Shown here: in pieces, positions 36,529 to 43,617 of the stretch | How the letters are laid out: each line of letters opens with the position of its first letter | How positions within the stretch are numbered: the first letter of the stretch is position 1 | NCBI GenBank assembly: GCA_949291375.1 | Contig: CASEVI010000001.1 | Coordinates: forward strand, 380,980 to 444,979 | Direction of reading: 5' to 3' | DNA: 64,000 nt | From: an uncultured bacterium | Lineage (GTDB): Bacteria; Bacillota_I; Bacilli_A; RFN20; CAG-826 | The notes under the pieces: model-generated | What the model was told of the DNA's origin: nothing | The model's database searches: none | What the model saw: only the letters and a program-made list of their open reading frames with translations | Program-made: the position numbers and the translations under genes

Positions 36529-36720
36529 TTATTTTGCATTAGATTTATTGAGGCTTCTATAAGCTCTTGCACTCATTCTAACTTTAACAATTTGACCATT
36601 AATTTCTACTTTATATGTGTGGAGATTAACATCCCATCTTCTACGAGTAGCGATAAGAGAGTGTGAGCGTTTATTACCACTAATTGGGTGCTTACCTGTA
36701 ATAGGACATACTCTTGACAT
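36529..36720 (-). CDS. rpmB: 50S ribosomal protein L28
   Basis: 63 residues, the Gram-positive L28 length. S-R-V-C-P-I-T-G-K near the N-terminus, N-K-R-S-H-S, T-R-R-R-W-D-V-N-L-H and V-S/R-M-S-A-R-A-Y-R-S-L are typical. Only one cysteine pair half (C5) of the zinc-binding form remains, so it is probably zinc-independent. A strong GGAGG lies 8 bases before ATG. It is convergent with the operon ending at 36453, whereas in Bacillus rpmB also lies after thiN and rpe, on the opposite strand. Confidence 0.97.
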   Translation of the reverse strand: MSRVCPITGKHPISGNKRSHSLIATRRRWDVNLHTYKVEINGQIVKVRMSARAYRSLNKSNAK

Positions 36721-36998: not shown

Positions 36999-38432
36999 AT
37001 GAATTTATTTGATATTGTACCTAATAATTATTTTTCGATATTTACTGGGAAAAATAAAGAAATTTACATAGAAAGTTTAAATATATTGTATTCTCTTTTG
37101 CAAAATGATGAAGCCGTCATTAAAAAAAGTGATTTTTTAAGCGCTTTAAAAGAAAGAGAAAAAAATTTAAATAATTTTAGTTTAGATGAAGAAGATTTAA
37201 CGAGTGAAGAAAAAAATGATTTAAGTATTGATACTCCTGCCTCAAAGGCATCTTTTGTTATTCGTCGATTAGAAGAAACGGGTTGGATTGATATATCAAT
37301 GGATATTGATAATTATGAAGAAGTTATCGTTTTACCGGCTTATACAATTTCTTTACTTAAAACTTTTAGTGATATTATTAGTGATGAAGAAGCTCCTTAT
37401 TTATCACTTGTCCATTCAACATATTCAGAATTAAAACTTGAAGATGAAGATATGGATGAACTTTTATATACAACTTTACTTAGATGTTATGAAAACACTA
37501 AAAAATTAAAGGTCGAATTAATTACTCTTATTCATTCAATTAGAATTTTCCAAAATAAATTGACTAAACTTTTTGACACAAATGAAGTTTTACATTCTTA
37601 TTTTGATATTTATAAAAAGAAAATTTCTGATAGATATTATCATCCTTTAAAAACGTTTGATAGTGTTGCAAAATTCAAAAGACCAATTATTAAAATTTTA
37701 GATCGTTGGCTAAAAGATAAAAATATTCGTGAAAAGCTTATAGTTCAAGCATCTATAAGCGCAAAAAATAATAATAAAAAAGAGATTGAAAACGATATCA
37801 TTACTAAAATCAATTATATAAGTGATACATATGAAACATTAAATTCATTAATTTCCTCAATTGATAAAGAAAATAATTCCTATACAAAGTCTTCAACTCA
37901 AAAGATTTTATATCTTAATAATAGTGATAGAACTATTAAAGGACACCTTGAAAATATCTTTAAACATTATGCTTCTTCAGTTAATGATGGAAGAGCTTTA
38001 GCTGATATTTTATCTAAAATGCAAGACTCAACTTCATTTTTTGAGCAAGGTTTTATTGATTCGGATTCTGTAACTTTACCAATTTTAAAGAAATATCGTG
38101 AAAATGGTGTTCCGCTTGAAATTGTTTCGTTTGATGAAGCTGATGATTTATTAATGGATAATTTCTTAGAAGAAACAAAAAATATTTACACTGATGAAAG
38201 AGTTTATTCCTTTATGGAACAATCATTTAGAGATAAAAAAGAAATTGATTCAAAAGAATTGAAAATTAAAAACTATGATTCACTTATTTGTTTAATATTA
38301 GCAACTGTTAAAAGCGAAGATGAATCATCTTTCTATAGAATTGAAGAATTAATGCCAAAGCAAATTCAAAATAATGACTTTATTATTCCAAACTTTGCTT
38401 TCATTAAAAAAGAAGAAAAGGAGGATAAATAA
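36999..38432 (+). CDS. jetA: Wadjet/MksBEF-type condensin subunit JetA (kleisin-like)
   Basis: 477 residues matching the JetA/MksF family (DUF5716). It has an N-terminal winged-helix-like part with the S-F-V-I-R-R-L-E-E-T-G-W-I-D block near 85-98, a long helical middle, and an acidic C-terminus. JetA is the kleisin that bridges the JetC ATPase heads and binds JetB. It is the first of three genes in the canonical order jetA-jetB-jetC, 3 bases before jetB. In Wadjet the complex recognises and extrudes circular plasmid DNA that JetD then cuts; the JetD gene is absent here. Confidence 0.85.
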   Translation: MNLFDIVPNNYFSIFTGKNKEIYIESLNILYSLLQNDEAVIKKSDFLSALKEREKNLNNFSLDEEDLTSEEKNDLSIDTPASKASFVIRRLEETGWIDISMDIDNYEEVIVLPAYTISLLKTFSDIISDEEAPYLSLVHSTYSELKLEDEDMDELLYTTLLRCYENTKKLKVELITLIHSIRIFQNKLTKLFDTNEVLHSYFDIYKKKISDRYYHPLKTFDSVAKFKRPIIKILDRWLKDKNIREKLIVQASISAKNNNKKEIENDIITKINYISDTYETLNSLISSIDKENNSYTKSSTQKILYLNNSDRTIKGHLENIFKHYASSVNDGRALADILSKMQDSTSFFEQGFIDSDSVTLPILKKYRENGVPLEIVSFDEADDLLMDNFLEETKNIYTDERVYSFMEQSFRDKKEIDSKELKIKNYDSLICLILATVKSEDESSFYRIEELMPKQIQNNDFIIPNFAFIKKEEKEDK

Positions 38433-38435
38433 AAC

Positions 38436-39086
38436 ATGTTTGAAGAAAAATTTAACGAATTATCTTATTCAGAAAAAAATCAATTTGGAAGTATTTTAAA
38501 TAGATTACTTTTAAAAGGTTTTATTGTTAGAGATATTTTTGATAATAAGGAAAAAATTGTAAAAATTTCACCAGATTATCGTTTTATCGAAAAAAGATAT
38601 GATTTAATTAACGATTATTTATCTTTTTCTAATTGGCGTATTGAAATTGATAAGATTTTAGGTGTTGTTACATTATTTAACGATAGTGACGAAAATAGAA
38701 TAAAATTAGATAGAGAAACTTCTTTAGTTTTATTTGTTTTAAGACAAATTTATGAAAACGAAAGAAATCAAACATCAATTAGTGGAGAAAGCATTTATAT
38801 CACTACGCCTATTTTAATTAGAACAATGCTTGAACATGGTATTTTAATGCCAGGAAAGAAATTAACCGGAAGAAATATTGCTAAAATTTTAAGATTTTTA
38901 GCAAATCATAATATTATCAATAAAGTTAGTGGAAATTATGATGAAGGAAATGTCGCTTTTTATATTATGCCTTCAATTGTTTATGCTTTAGATAATGAAA
39001 AAATTGCAGCAATGTCACAAGCTTTAGATAATATTAATAAAAAAGATGAGGGGGTTTTAAACGATGAAACTATTAACCAAGATTAA
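38436..39086 (+). CDS. jetB: Wadjet/MksBEF-type condensin subunit JetB (kite-like)
   Basis: 216 residues of the DUF4194/MksE kind: helical winged-helix segments with L-N-R-L-L-L-K-G-F-I-V-R near 22-33 and D-R-E-T-S-L-V-L-F-V-L-R near 90-101, the typical block of the family. It would bind the JetA kleisin as a dimer. AAAGGAGG precedes ATG by about 11 bases. Its 3' end overlaps jetC by 23 bases, so the subunits are probably translationally coupled. Identification rests on similarity to the family plus operon order. Confidence 0.82.
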   Translation: MFEEKFNELSYSEKNQFGSILNRLLLKGFIVRDIFDNKEKIVKISPDYRFIEKRYDLINDYLSFSNWRIEIDKILGVVTLFNDSDENRIKLDRETSLVLFVLRQIYENERNQTSISGESIYITTPILIRTMLEHGILMPGKKLTGRNIAKILRFLANHNIINKVSGNYDEGNVAFYIMPSIVYALDNEKIAAMSQALDNINKKDEGVLNDETINQD

Positions 39087-42000
39087 ATTAATTAATTGGC
39101 ATTATTTTTGGAATGAAACCATCGATATTAAACCTATTGTCTTTTTAACTGGTTTAAATGGAAGCGGTAAATCAACTTTAGTCGATGCTTTTGAAGTTGT
39201 TTTATTAGGTGATACAACAGGAAGAAGTTTTAATAAAGCTGCTTTAGAAAAAAGTTCTCGTACATTAAAGGGATATTTAAGAGGAGAACTTGGTGATGAT
39301 TTAGACGGTGGATTTAAATATTTAAGGAACGGCCGATTCACTTCCTACATCGCATTAGAGTTTCATGATGATATTGCTTCTAACGATTTTACTTTAGGTA
39401 TTGTTTTTGATTCGTTTGAAGATGGTAGTGAAGAGCATCATTTCTTTTGCTTAGAATCTAAAATTCCAGAAAATGAATTTATTGAAAACAATACTCCTTT
39501 AGATTACAAATCTTTAAATGGATTTTTCTCTTTAAACTATAAAGATAAATATCGTTTTTTTGATTCAAATAAACAATATCAAGAATTTTTAAAGAAAAAA
39601 TTAGGTGGTTTAAAGGATAAATATTTCTCTCTTTTAAAGAAAGCTACATCTTTTACACCTATCACCGATATTACAACATTTATTACTGAATATGTTTGTG
39701 ATCCTCAACAAAATTTAGATTTATCTGTTTTACAAGATAACATTTCACAATATCAAAAATTACAAATTGAGAGTGAAAATTTAAAGAAAAGAATAGAAAA
39801 ACTTAATGAAATTAAGACAAGTTATGATTTATATAAAAATCAAGAGAAGGATTTCACAGTCACTCGTTATTTAATTGAAAAATGCGAACTTTTTAATGAT
39901 GAAGAAAAATTAAAAGCCTTTAAAAATGAAGTTGTTGAAAGTGAAAAAAGAATTAATGAAATCGATGGAGAACTTGAAGAATTTAAATTAACTCTAGAAG
40001 AACTTGAAAGAAGAAAAGTTCATATAATTCAAGATAAAATGAACAATGATGTTGCAAAAATTACTGAAGATTTATATGAGCAAAAGAAAAATGTTACTGA
40101 AGAAGTTAATGAAATCAATTCTGAAATTAATGATGTAAAAAATTCTTTAAACGATTATATTGATAAATTTACCTCTGAAGCTAATAAATTATTAATTGAT
40201 TTAAATGAAGTTGATAAAGATATTATTGATGATGATAAAGAAGAAGATATTGTTAAAATTTTACTTTCTTCTAATAAAGTTATCGAAGTTTCAACCGCTT
40301 TAAAATCAAAAGTTGAAGAAAATGTTTTATTAGTTAATAAAGATAATTTAAATATATTTAAAGAAACATTGAAACAATTCAAGAACAACGTTTCAACTTT
40401 AGCAATTTCTTTAGCTAGAACAGTCCTTACTTTAGAAAAAAGAATTGCTTCTATTAAAGAAGAGGAAGCATCAATTAAAAAAGGTACAAAACCATTTAAT
40501 TCGCGTTTAGTTTATATCAAAGATAGATTAAAGGATGAATTAAAGATTAAGTTTAATAAAGATATAGATGTAGAACTTTATTGTGACTTAATTGATATTA
40601 AAGATAAATCTTGGTCAAATGCTATTGAAGGCTATTTAGCAAGTCAAAAATTCAATATTTTTGTTGCTCCAAAATATTATCTTGAAGCTTATCGTATTTT
40701 AAGAAGAATTTTAGAAGAATATGGTTATTATGGAACTGCTTTAGTTGACCAAGAAAAGATCATTGAAAGAAATTATCAAATGGAAGAAGACTCTTTAGCT
40801 AGCGAAATTGAAACCGATCACGAGGGGGCAAGAGCTTATACTAATTTCTTAATTGGTAGATTACATAAAAGTGAAGACGAAGAAGAAGCTAGAGAAAGTG
40901 GGAATGGTATAACTAGAAACTGCGATTTATATCGTAATTTTACATTCTCAAAGATTAATCCTCGTTTATATCAAGATGCTTATATTGGTAGAAATTTAGA
41001 TGAAAGATTTTTAGAAGATAAAGCTCGTCAACTTAAATCTCATATGATGAATTTAGCTTCTTATAAGAAACTTTCTGCTTTAATTACTGAAGCCAATAAT
41101 CTTGAACTTATTTCAAATGGTGAAATTGATCATTTAATTTCTTCTCTTGCAAGAGGCTCTGAATTAAAAGGATATCAAAATACATTAGAATATATCGAAA
41201 ATGAGTTAAAAGAACATGATACTGCTTTATTAGCTTCACTCGATAAACGTTTAGATGATGTTAATGATGATATTGAGGATGTTACAAAACAAAGAGAAAG
41301 TTTAATTTTAGAAAAAGGTAATTTAATTAAACAAGTCGAATCTTTAAAAAATGAAAAAATTAAAGATGTTGAAGCCATTATTACAACAAGAAAAGAAAAT
41401 TTATCATCAAATTATGATAAAGAAACTGTTGATAAATATGGACTCCCTTTATTTAATGAGAAATTAGATGAAGGAAAAACATATTATGAAATCCTTTCAG
41501 ATGCAAATGCATCTTTAACAAGATTCCAATATTTATATAACAATTCTTTCTCATCTTTATGTAAATTAAGAAGAGATTATATCCATGATTATCATCTTTC
41601 TTATGATCCAGACAGTAAGGATAATAAGACATTTGATGATGAACTTATTGAATTTAGAGATGTAAAACTTCCTGAATATAATGATCAAATTCATGACGCA
41701 TATTTAAAAGCTACTCAACAATTTAAAGATGATTTTATCTTTAAATTAAGAGGTGCTATTGAAGATGTCGAAGATCAAATTGAGAATTTAAACGAAGCTT
41801 TAGCTCAATCTTCCTTCGGAAGAGACTCCTATAAATTTACTGTAAAACCATCTCAAGTATTTAAAAGATACTATGATATGCTTAAAGATGATATAATATT
41901 AGAAGGTGGCGAGGATGAAAGTTTATTCCTCGAAAAATATAAGGATGTAATGGAAGATTTATTTAGACAAATTGTTGATGTAAATGATCCTAATAATTCA

Positions 42001-42435
42001 TCCGAAGAATTATTAAATAATATTGTTAGATTTACTGATTATCGTTCTTATTTAGATTTTGATCTTATTGTTTATAATAAAGATACAGGTAAAGAAGAAA
42101 GATTATCTATCATGATTAAAAAGAAGAGTGGTGGCGAAACTCAAACCCCGTTCTATATCGCAGTATTAGCTTCATTCGCTCAACTTTATCATGTTCATGA
42201 AGAAGGTGAAATTGCTAATACTTCAAGACTTATTATATTTGATGAAGCATTCTCAAAGATGGATAGAGGTAGAATTAAAGAAGCCGTTAAGTTATTAAGA
42301 AAATTCAATTTACAAGTTATTATCTCTTGTCCAACAGATAAAGTTGCTGATATTACCGAACTCGTTGATGAAACATTAGTCGTATTACATAATAAAAATA
42401 GCAGTTGTGTACGTGTGTTTTCAAAAATTTCCTAA
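39064..42435 (+). CDS. jetC: Wadjet/MksBEF-type condensin ATPase JetC (SMC-like)
   Basis: 1123 residues, the usual JetC/MksB length. Walker A T-G-L-N-G-S-G-K-S-T lies at 29-38. Long coiled coils (about 230-450 and 700-860) surround a hinge-like centre with D-L-I-D-I-K-D-K-S-W near 515. The ABC signature S-G-G-E-T-Q-T-P-F-Y lies near 1022 and Walker B L-I-I-F-D-E-A-F-S near 1057. All ATPase parts look intact. It would form the DNA-extruding SMC dimer with JetA and JetB. GAGGGGG lies before ATG. glgC follows after 48 bases, leaving no room for jetD. Confidence 0.92.
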   Translation: MKLLTKIKLINWHYFWNETIDIKPIVFLTGLNGSGKSTLVDAFEVVLLGDTTGRSFNKAALEKSSRTLKGYLRGELGDDLDGGFKYLRNGRFTSYIALEFHDDIASNDFTLGIVFDSFEDGSEEHHFFCLESKIPENEFIENNTPLDYKSLNGFFSLNYKDKYRFFDSNKQYQEFLKKKLGGLKDKYFSLLKKATSFTPITDITTFITEYVCDPQQNLDLSVLQDNISQYQKLQIESENLKKRIEKLNEIKTSYDLYKNQEKDFTVTRYLIEKCELFNDEEKLKAFKNEVVESEKRINEIDGELEEFKLTLEELERRKVHIIQDKMNNDVAKITEDLYEQKKNVTEEVNEINSEINDVKNSLNDYIDKFTSEANKLLIDLNEVDKDIIDDDKEEDIVKILLSSNKVIEVSTALKSKVEENVLLVNKDNLNIFKETLKQFKNNVSTLAISLARTVLTLEKRIASIKEEEASIKKGTKPFNSRLVYIKDRLKDELKIKFNKDIDVELYCDLIDIKDKSWSNAIEGYLASQKFNIFVAPKYYLEAYRILRRILEEYGYYGTALVDQEKIIERNYQMEEDSLASEIETDHEGARAYTNFLIGRLHKSEDEEEARESGNGITRNCDLYRNFTFSKINPRLYQDAYIGRNLDERFLEDKARQLKSHMMNLASYKKLSALITEANNLELISNGEIDHLISSLARGSELKGYQNTLEYIENELKEHDTALLASLDKRLDDVNDDIEDVTKQRESLILEKGNLIKQVESLKNEKIKDVEAIITTRKENLSSNYDKETVDKYGLPLFNEKLDEGKTYYEILSDANASLTRFQYLYNNSFSSLCKLRRDYIHDYHLSYDPDSKDNKTFDDELIEFRDVKLPEYNDQIHDAYLKATQQFKDDFIFKLRGAIEDVEDQIENLNEALAQSSFGRDSYKFTVKPSQVFKRYYDMLKDDIILEGGEDESLFLEKYKDVMEDLFRQIVDVNDPNNSSEELLNNIVRFTDYRSYLDFDLIVYNKDTGKEERLSIMIKKKSGGETQTPFYIAVLASFAQLYHVHEEGEIANTSRLIIFDEAFSKMDRGRIKEAVKLLRKFNLQVIISCPTDKVADITELVDETLVVLHNKNSSCVRVFSKIS

Positions 42436-42483: not shown

Positions 42484-43617
42484 ATGGGTAGAAATGTTGT
42501 AGCGATGATTTTAGCGGGAGGTAAAGGCACCAGACTCCATGCCCTTACAAAGAAAATCGCTAAACCTGCAGTCTATTTCGGTGGTAAATATCGTATTATC
42601 GATTTTTCCCTTTCAAATGTTGCAAATTCATCGATTGATTCGGTTGGTGTTTTAACTCAATATGAGTCTGTAGTTTTAAACAACTATATCGGTAATGGAT
42701 CAAAATGGGGTTTTGATGGAGTCGAATCAACCTGTGTTGCGCTTGCCCCTCGTCAAACCGAAAGTGGCGCAAACTGGTATAAAGGAACAGCGGATGCTAT
42801 ATATCAAAATATTGATTTTTTAGATAGTGAAGCTCCTCAATATGTTCTTATTCTTTCAGGAGATCATATCTATAAAACAAGTTATGATCAAATGATTGCC
42901 TTACATATTAAATCTAAGGCAGATTGTACAATTTCTGTTCTAGAAGTTGATATAAAAGAAGCTTCAAGATTTGGTATTTTAGAGGTTGATAGCACTGACA
43001 CAATTACAAAATTTGTTGAAAAACCAAAAGAACCTAAATCTAATTTAGCATCAATGGGTGTTTATGTTTTTACATATAAAGTATTAAGACAAGCACTTGT
43101 TGAAGATGCTAAAGATGAAAAGAGTGAACATGATTTTGGTAAAAATATTATTCCAAAGATGCTCGCTCAAAAGAAAAAATTAGTTGCTTATAGGTTTAAA
43201 GGTTATTGGAGAGATGTCGGAACACTTGATTCCTTACATCAAGCTAATATGGAACTTTTACCTTCTCAAAGAAGTGCAGACACAATTAACTTTGACGAAT
43301 CTCCAAAAATTTATAGCGAAGATACAAATTCATATCCACAATATATTGACTCAAAAGCTACTGTAAAAGATTGCCTTATTAATCAAGGGGCTAGTATTTA
43401 TGGTACTTGTATAAAATCTGTTATTTCAAATGAAGTAGTTATTGAAGAAGGCGCTACAGTTACTAATTCCGTTTTAATGCCTGGAGTTATTATTAAAAAA
43501 GGTGCTTATGTTGAAAATTCAATTTTAGGACCTGACACAGTCATTAAAGAGAACGAAGTTATTAATAAAGATAGTGGAAAAATAGTCTTACTTGACTATG
43601 AAAGGAATTTACAATAA
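42484..43617 (+). CDS. glgC: Glucose-1-phosphate adenylyltransferase
   Basis: 377 residues. L-A-G-G-K-G-T-R-L near residues 10-18 is the nucleotidyltransferase signature; K-P-A-V-Y-F-G-G-K-Y-R-I-I-D-F, W-Y-K-G-T-A-D-A, and a left-handed beta-helix C-terminus follow. It makes ADP-glucose from ATP and glucose-1-phosphate, the committed step of glycogen synthesis; the pyrophosphate formed is removed by Ppa. A strong AAAGGAGG precedes ATG. Its stop overlaps the start of glgD by one base. Confidence 0.97.
   Translation: MGRNVVAMILAGGKGTRLHALTKKIAKPAVYFGGKYRIIDFSLSNVANSSIDSVGVLTQYESVVLNNYIGNGSKWGFDGVESTCVALAPRQTESGANWYKGTADAIYQNIDFLDSEAPQYVLILSGDHIYKTSYDQMIALHIKSKADCTISVLEVDIKEASRFGILEVDSTDTITKFVEKPKEPKSNLASMGVYVFTYKVLRQALVEDAKDEKSEHDFGKNIIPKMLAQKKKLVAYRFKGYWRDVGTLDSLHQANMELLPSQRSADTINFDESPKIYSEDTNSYPQYIDSKATVKDCLINQGASIYGTCIKSVISNEVVIEEGATVTNSVLMPGVIIKKGAYVENSILGPDTVIKENEVINKDSGKIVLLDYERNLQ

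Follow-up and report, generated by a model that had tools for sequence, protein, structure and literature searches.

The systems closest to the one described here are type I Wadjet (JetABCD/MksBEFG), MksBEF, MukBEF, and Smc-ScpAB. MksBEF of Pseudomonas aeruginosa is an Mks/Jet core that has no nuclease, reportedly helps to organize the chromosome, and is thought to come from loss of JetD (PMC10586767). MukBEF of the Enterobacteria, a complex of a structural maintenance of chromosomes (SMC) protein, a kleisin, and a KITE protein, apparently replaced Smc-ScpAB; the same history of JetD loss has been proposed for it as for P. aeruginosa MksBEF, and the derivation of both from a defense complex has been put forward as a tempting but speculative idea (PMC10586767). 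Here we describe a jetABC operon without the nuclease gene jetD in a 64,000-nucleotide stretch of DNA from an uncultured bacterium of the Bacilli (assembly GCA_949291375.1, contig CASEVI010000001.1, positions 380,980 to 444,979), hereafter called the window. Its sequence and relatives suggest that it probably encodes a type I Wadjet-derived SMC complex that has permanently lost JetD and acts as a resident chromosome condensin in place of Smc-ScpAB.

A complete jetABC core without JetD

The operon and the catalytic motifs of JetC lie on the forward strand of the window, as follows.

36999..38432 (+), jetA (kleisin), 477 aa; PF18982 298 bits (cut-off 26.2), PADLOC JetA1 400 bits
38436..39086 (+), jetB (KITE), 216 aa; DUF4194 63.6 bits, PADLOC JetB1 212 bits
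39064..42435 (+), jetC (SMC-like ATPase), 1123 aa; PADLOC JetC1 1092 bits, SbcC Walker B model 83 bits
39151..39177 (+), JetC Walker A, GLNGSGKST, residues 30-38; from alignment
42121..42144 (+), JetC signature, KKSGGETQ; from alignment
42232..42252 (+), JetC Walker B, IIFDEAF; from alignment

The three proteins matched the PADLOC type I models JetA1, JetB1, and JetC1 along their full length, and their genes form a single ordered operon, with a gap of 3 bp between jetA and jetB and an overlap of 23 bp between jetB and jetC. The Walker A, signature, and Walker B motifs of JetC were all kept in an alignment of 16 sequences, as befits an SMC ABC-ATPase. A preliminary description of this DNA had reported jetA, jetB, and an intact jetC in canonical order, with glgC starting 48 bp past the end of jetC and JetD missing from the operon; the open reading frames (ORFs), profile scores, and JetC motifs confirmed all of this. 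No terminator-like site was found between jetC and glgC. In composition, an SMC protein, a kleisin, and a KITE protein with no nuclease, the set is of the MksBEF/MukBEF type. The predicted structure of JetA, of moderate quality (predicted local distance difference test score [pLDDT] of 68.5), had Wadjet-II JetA and MukF as its top structural matches. A sequence search of the PDB gave a weak match of the JetC ATPase to JetC 8dk1 and no useful match for JetA or JetB. We rejected membership of JetC in the MukB family, since the Pfam MukB N-terminal model gave a marginal match (24.1 bits at a cut-off of 23) over 54 residues only, against 1,092 bits for PADLOC JetC1.

The preliminary description had left three options open: that the host uses the complex for chromosome organization, that another nuclease is recruited, or that JetD lies elsewhere. 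The last was not borne out, as a search of the whole 1.29-Mb host genome (12 contigs, 96.7% complete) with JetD_C (PF09983) found no match, the N-terminal DUF3322 model not having been searched separately; the control genome of Corynebacterium glutamicum gave a JetD_C match in the same search. Wadjet defense (JetABCD) includes a JetD, and here none was found in the operon or in the genome. Among relatives, JetD was found after jetC in 0/19 syntenic loci of the same family with sequence beyond jetC and beside JetC in none of the 19 loci inspected in the order's other families. A replacement nuclease adjoining jetABC was likewise rejected, because none occurred among the neighboring genes inspected across relatives with the resident copy. 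The IFDR motif at the JetB N-terminus, a reported JetD contact, proved an uninformative marker: with the pattern used, it was found in 0/23 JetD-bearing relatives, and its absence therefore says nothing on JetD docking.

Smc and ScpB are missing from the family

The preliminary description had suggested a search of the genome for canonical Smc/ScpAB; Smc and ScpB were both absent. Across the family, none of 196 genomes had a match to SMC_prok_B (TIGR02168) above cut-off, the best scores not exceeding 51 bits (cut-off 567), and ScpB above cut-off was equally lacking (0/196). SMC_prok_B above cut-off was also found in 0/147 genomes of the order; a partial Smc fragment of 391 bits, which may be a contaminant, was present in one metagenome-assembled genome (MAG) of the order (G237, 82% complete). 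In 79 of 159 genomes sampled from the whole class, the same search did return Smc at full strength (mostly 900 to 1,100 bits), so the method itself does not account for the absence.

These counts bear on the idea that JetABC is a DNA-bridging or silencing complex that acts on foreign DNA such as plasmids and does not cut it (e.g., in copy-number control) and has no major chromosomal role, which we regard as quite unlikely. There is a precedent in C. glutamicum, where Mks acts on the copy number of plasmids but leaves chromosome folding unaffected (PMC10123090), and over half of the window's family is without both complexes, so that the group does not call for an essential role on the chromosome. 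However, in C. glutamicum the plasmid effect depends on the nuclease MksG as well (PMC10123090), and Smc is present to organize the chromosome, whereas Smc is missing from the entire order studied here, and nearly all genomes of its other families have JetABC.

The resident copy is conserved and under purifying selection

JetA was present in 23/23 sampled genomes of the window's genus, with one copy split at contig ends, and the resident JetD-less JetABC was found in ten or more genera of the family. Across 20 loci from ten of these genera (L051-L070), the surroundings were much alike: rlmN, PP2C, PknB, rpe, a membrane protein gene, rpmB (on the opposite strand), jetABC, glgCDA, and leuS, with glgC directly after jetC or one ORF later in 15 of them. 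The same arrangement was seen in MAGs of uncultured Bacilli, among them Candidatus Onthovivens merdipullorum, and the jetABC-glgCDA synteny was shared by two other families of the order (f3 and f5). JetC was found in 53/55 sampled genomes of the order's other families, at 33 to 43% identity and mostly at full length. The locus is thus conserved across relatives, a comparison that the preliminary description had proposed; it had taken the housekeeping location as a hint of a stable resident role and not of a defense island.

Against four near relatives (95 to 97% identity), the ratio of nonsynonymous to synonymous substitution rates (dN/dS) of JetABC was 0.04 to 0.06, and values for glgA, glgC, and leuS were similar. 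The resident jetABC is under purifying selection on par with that on its housekeeping neighbors. That one of four genes is gone could suggest a decaying remnant of a Wadjet operon, but this is highly improbable given that the other three are intact, constrained like housekeeping genes, and conserved over the order.

In the window, the conserved neighbors, which we list as context outside the complex, are as follows.

36529..36720 (-), rpmB (ribosomal protein L28), conserved upstream neighbor; read from sequence
42484..43617 (+), glgC, next gene after jetC; NTP_transferase 245 bits

Two further genes are found at the edges of the operon in relatives. The first, in many other genera and in f3 and f5, lies between jetC and glgC and encodes a protein of about 300 aa with two N-terminal membrane helices; it is lacking in the window's genus. 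Its copy in L051 gave a weak DUF3137 match, and the protein could be a membrane partner or a mere neighbor. The second, encoding a membrane protein of about 150 aa, lies on the opposite strand between rpmB and jetA in most relatives and is absent from the window and its closest relatives.

L060:12432-13349 (+), ~300-aa membrane-helix protein
L056:6520-7440 (-), ~300-aa membrane-helix protein
L158:11465-12382 (+), ~300-aa membrane-helix protein
L060:6120-6563 (-), ~150-aa membrane protein
L051:13114-13569 (+), ~150-aa membrane protein

Origin of the core and canonical Wadjet in the same family

Outside the order, the closest JetABC came from Clostridia (Clostridium thermobutyricum, Caldicoprobacter, Thermoclostridium, Geosporobacter, and others), with JetC 36 to 39% identical. 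JetD came next after jetABC in 11 of these Clostridial operons, and the few remaining ones end near a contig end or are unclear. A 7-residue segment of JetB common to the Clostridial and order sequences and missing in other lineages supports this kinship. In a tree of concatenated JetA, JetB, and JetC, each family of the order formed its own group, except the weakly supported f4, as vertical inheritance predicts.

JetD scored above cut-off in 17/196 genomes of the window's family. In the loci inspected (L071, L078-L081, L090, L204, and L205), it directly followed a JetABC of a second, patchily distributed type, whose identity to the window copy is only about 25%. Some genomes have both canonical JetABCD and the resident JetABC, and the two are plainly distinct. 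One close relative carries a canonical Wadjet copy with jetA split into two ORFs (G026:C32:2965-5026) and a resident JetD-less copy that is intact.

Another JetD-less JetABC lineage, in genus g25 of the same family, has, on the same strand as jetA and 54 bp upstream of it, a gene for a protein of about 1,990 aa, and similar large genes stand upstream of jetABC in five further loci (L085-L089). It is possible that this helicase-nuclease replaces JetD in that lineage.

L084:13087-19065 (-), ~1990-aa helicase-nuclease gene, genus g25; DUF4011, SF1 (superfamily 1) helicase, and MTES_1575 nuclease domains; PADLOC PDC-S37

The g25 arrangement makes nuclease substitution conceivable, and the resident core is closest to the complete JetABCD operons of Clostridia; both would fit a JetABC that is still an anti-plasmid defense, recruiting an unrelated nuclease encoded elsewhere in the genome. 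We nevertheless judge this unlikely, because the resident lineage has no conserved nuclease neighbor and because the resident copy is fixed in the genus and the order at a housekeeping place, whereas the canonical copies are patchy.

JetD-less JetABC in other families of the class

In the class sample, where counts of JetA, Smc, and JetD were not corrected for kinship, 36 genomes had JetA and no Smc, and 33 of them were without any JetD; two of the remaining three (G026 and G385) carry JetD only with a second JetABC copy. In five other Smc-less families (f10, f16, f26, f27, and f28), of which f16 is one that we take to be probably Acholeplasmataceae, JetABC was without JetD in 18/18 loci first inspected. 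The genes downstream of jetABC in these other Smc-less families were ordinary ones: ptsI, peptidase C1, rsmE, mtaB, MatE, and an ABC ATPase. Complete JetABCD was present in Smc-containing genomes of f14 and f20. A literature search found, among the papers it covered, no earlier report of a JetD-less Wadjet in Smc-less Bacilli or Acholeplasma.

Separately, well over half of the genomes of the window's family apparently have no known SMC condensin, that is, neither canonical Smc nor JetA.

Proposed role and points that weigh against it

The JetD-less JetABC has all the parts that an SMC complex needs to extrude loops with ATP, and it lacks a cutting module. We consider chromosome compaction and segregation its most likely role, since Smc and ScpB are missing and the complex is fixed and constrained like a housekeeping gene; among the three options of the preliminary description, chromosome organization is accordingly the one that the sequence comparisons favor most. 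In the mechanism that we propose, JetC dimers joined by JetA would load onto chromosomal DNA, and ATP use would drive loop extrusion by JetABC. Without JetD, completed extrusion would have no cleavage outcome, and the motor would compact the chromosome and help to resolve sister chromosomes. This would be the counterpart of what MukBEF does in enterobacteria and, in part, MksBEF does in Pseudomonas. The sequence data show the intact genes and ATPase motifs, the lack of JetD, Smc, and ScpB, and the conservation, synteny, and purifying selection; that the complex extrudes loops, acts on the chromosome, and stands in for Smc we infer. For most of this order of Bacilli, JetABC seems to be the sole SMC complex.

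Four observations weigh against this reading. First, JetD-bearing Clostridial JetABC were nested among the order's JetD-less families, at weakly supported forks. JetD-less members formed groups that track the families of the order, but a single JetD-less clade for the order was rejected by approximately unbiased (AU) tests (P value = 0.008, and 0.0003 when the long f8 branch was left out). This implies repeated loss of JetD, or its regain or transfer with the Clostridial line. Second, f14 has, besides its complete JetABCD, a second JetABC that is JetD-less alongside Smc, which shows that loss of JetD does not require loss of Smc. Third, a link between JetD and Smc cannot be proved from the small number of phylogenetically independent pairs, and we place no weight on plain Fisher tests, which take no account of kinship. 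Fourth, 135/196 genomes of the family are without JetA and also without Smc; a condensin is dispensable in some relatives, and loss of every known condensin is possible in the family.

In f14 (L193-L197), the JetD-less JetABC lies about 15 to 26 kb from smc in three genomes (G256, G286, and G294). This coexistence could be an intermediate step, with JetD lost first and Smc later.

The wider proposal is that Wadjet cores were domesticated repeatedly in Bacilli into the sole chromosomal condensin, each time dropping JetD, together with the loss of Smc-ScpAB: in the window's order and separately in f10, f16, and f26-f28. We see this as evenly balanced. A counter-example is f21 (G367), which is Smc-less and whose only JetABC has JetD.

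If a resident condensin is the correct reading, a large bacterial group from the gut and the environment may organize its chromosomes without Smc-ScpAB, and JetABC matches without JetD in these Bacilli should not count as anti-plasmid defense. Moreover, a single bacterial class offers three states for comparison, namely complete JetABCD and JetD-less JetABC either with Smc or in its absence, which makes the step from defense machine to housekeeping condensin testable.

Comparison with known systems

The window proteins fall in the PADLOC JetA1, JetB1, and JetC1 families and their genes have the same order as in type I Wadjet, from which the locus differs in having no jetD in operon or genome, a fixed housekeeping synteny, and an Smc-less host. 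It shares the nuclease-less core with P. aeruginosa MksBEF; however, P. aeruginosa has Smc-ScpAB too, whereas the window complex is apparently the only SMC condensin of its host and belongs to a different JetABC lineage. With Smc-ScpAB, it would have its presumed role in common, although JetC is not a member of SMC_prok_B. The likeness to MukBEF extends to the structural match between the JetA model and MukF, but the replacement described here is in Bacilli and looks independent.
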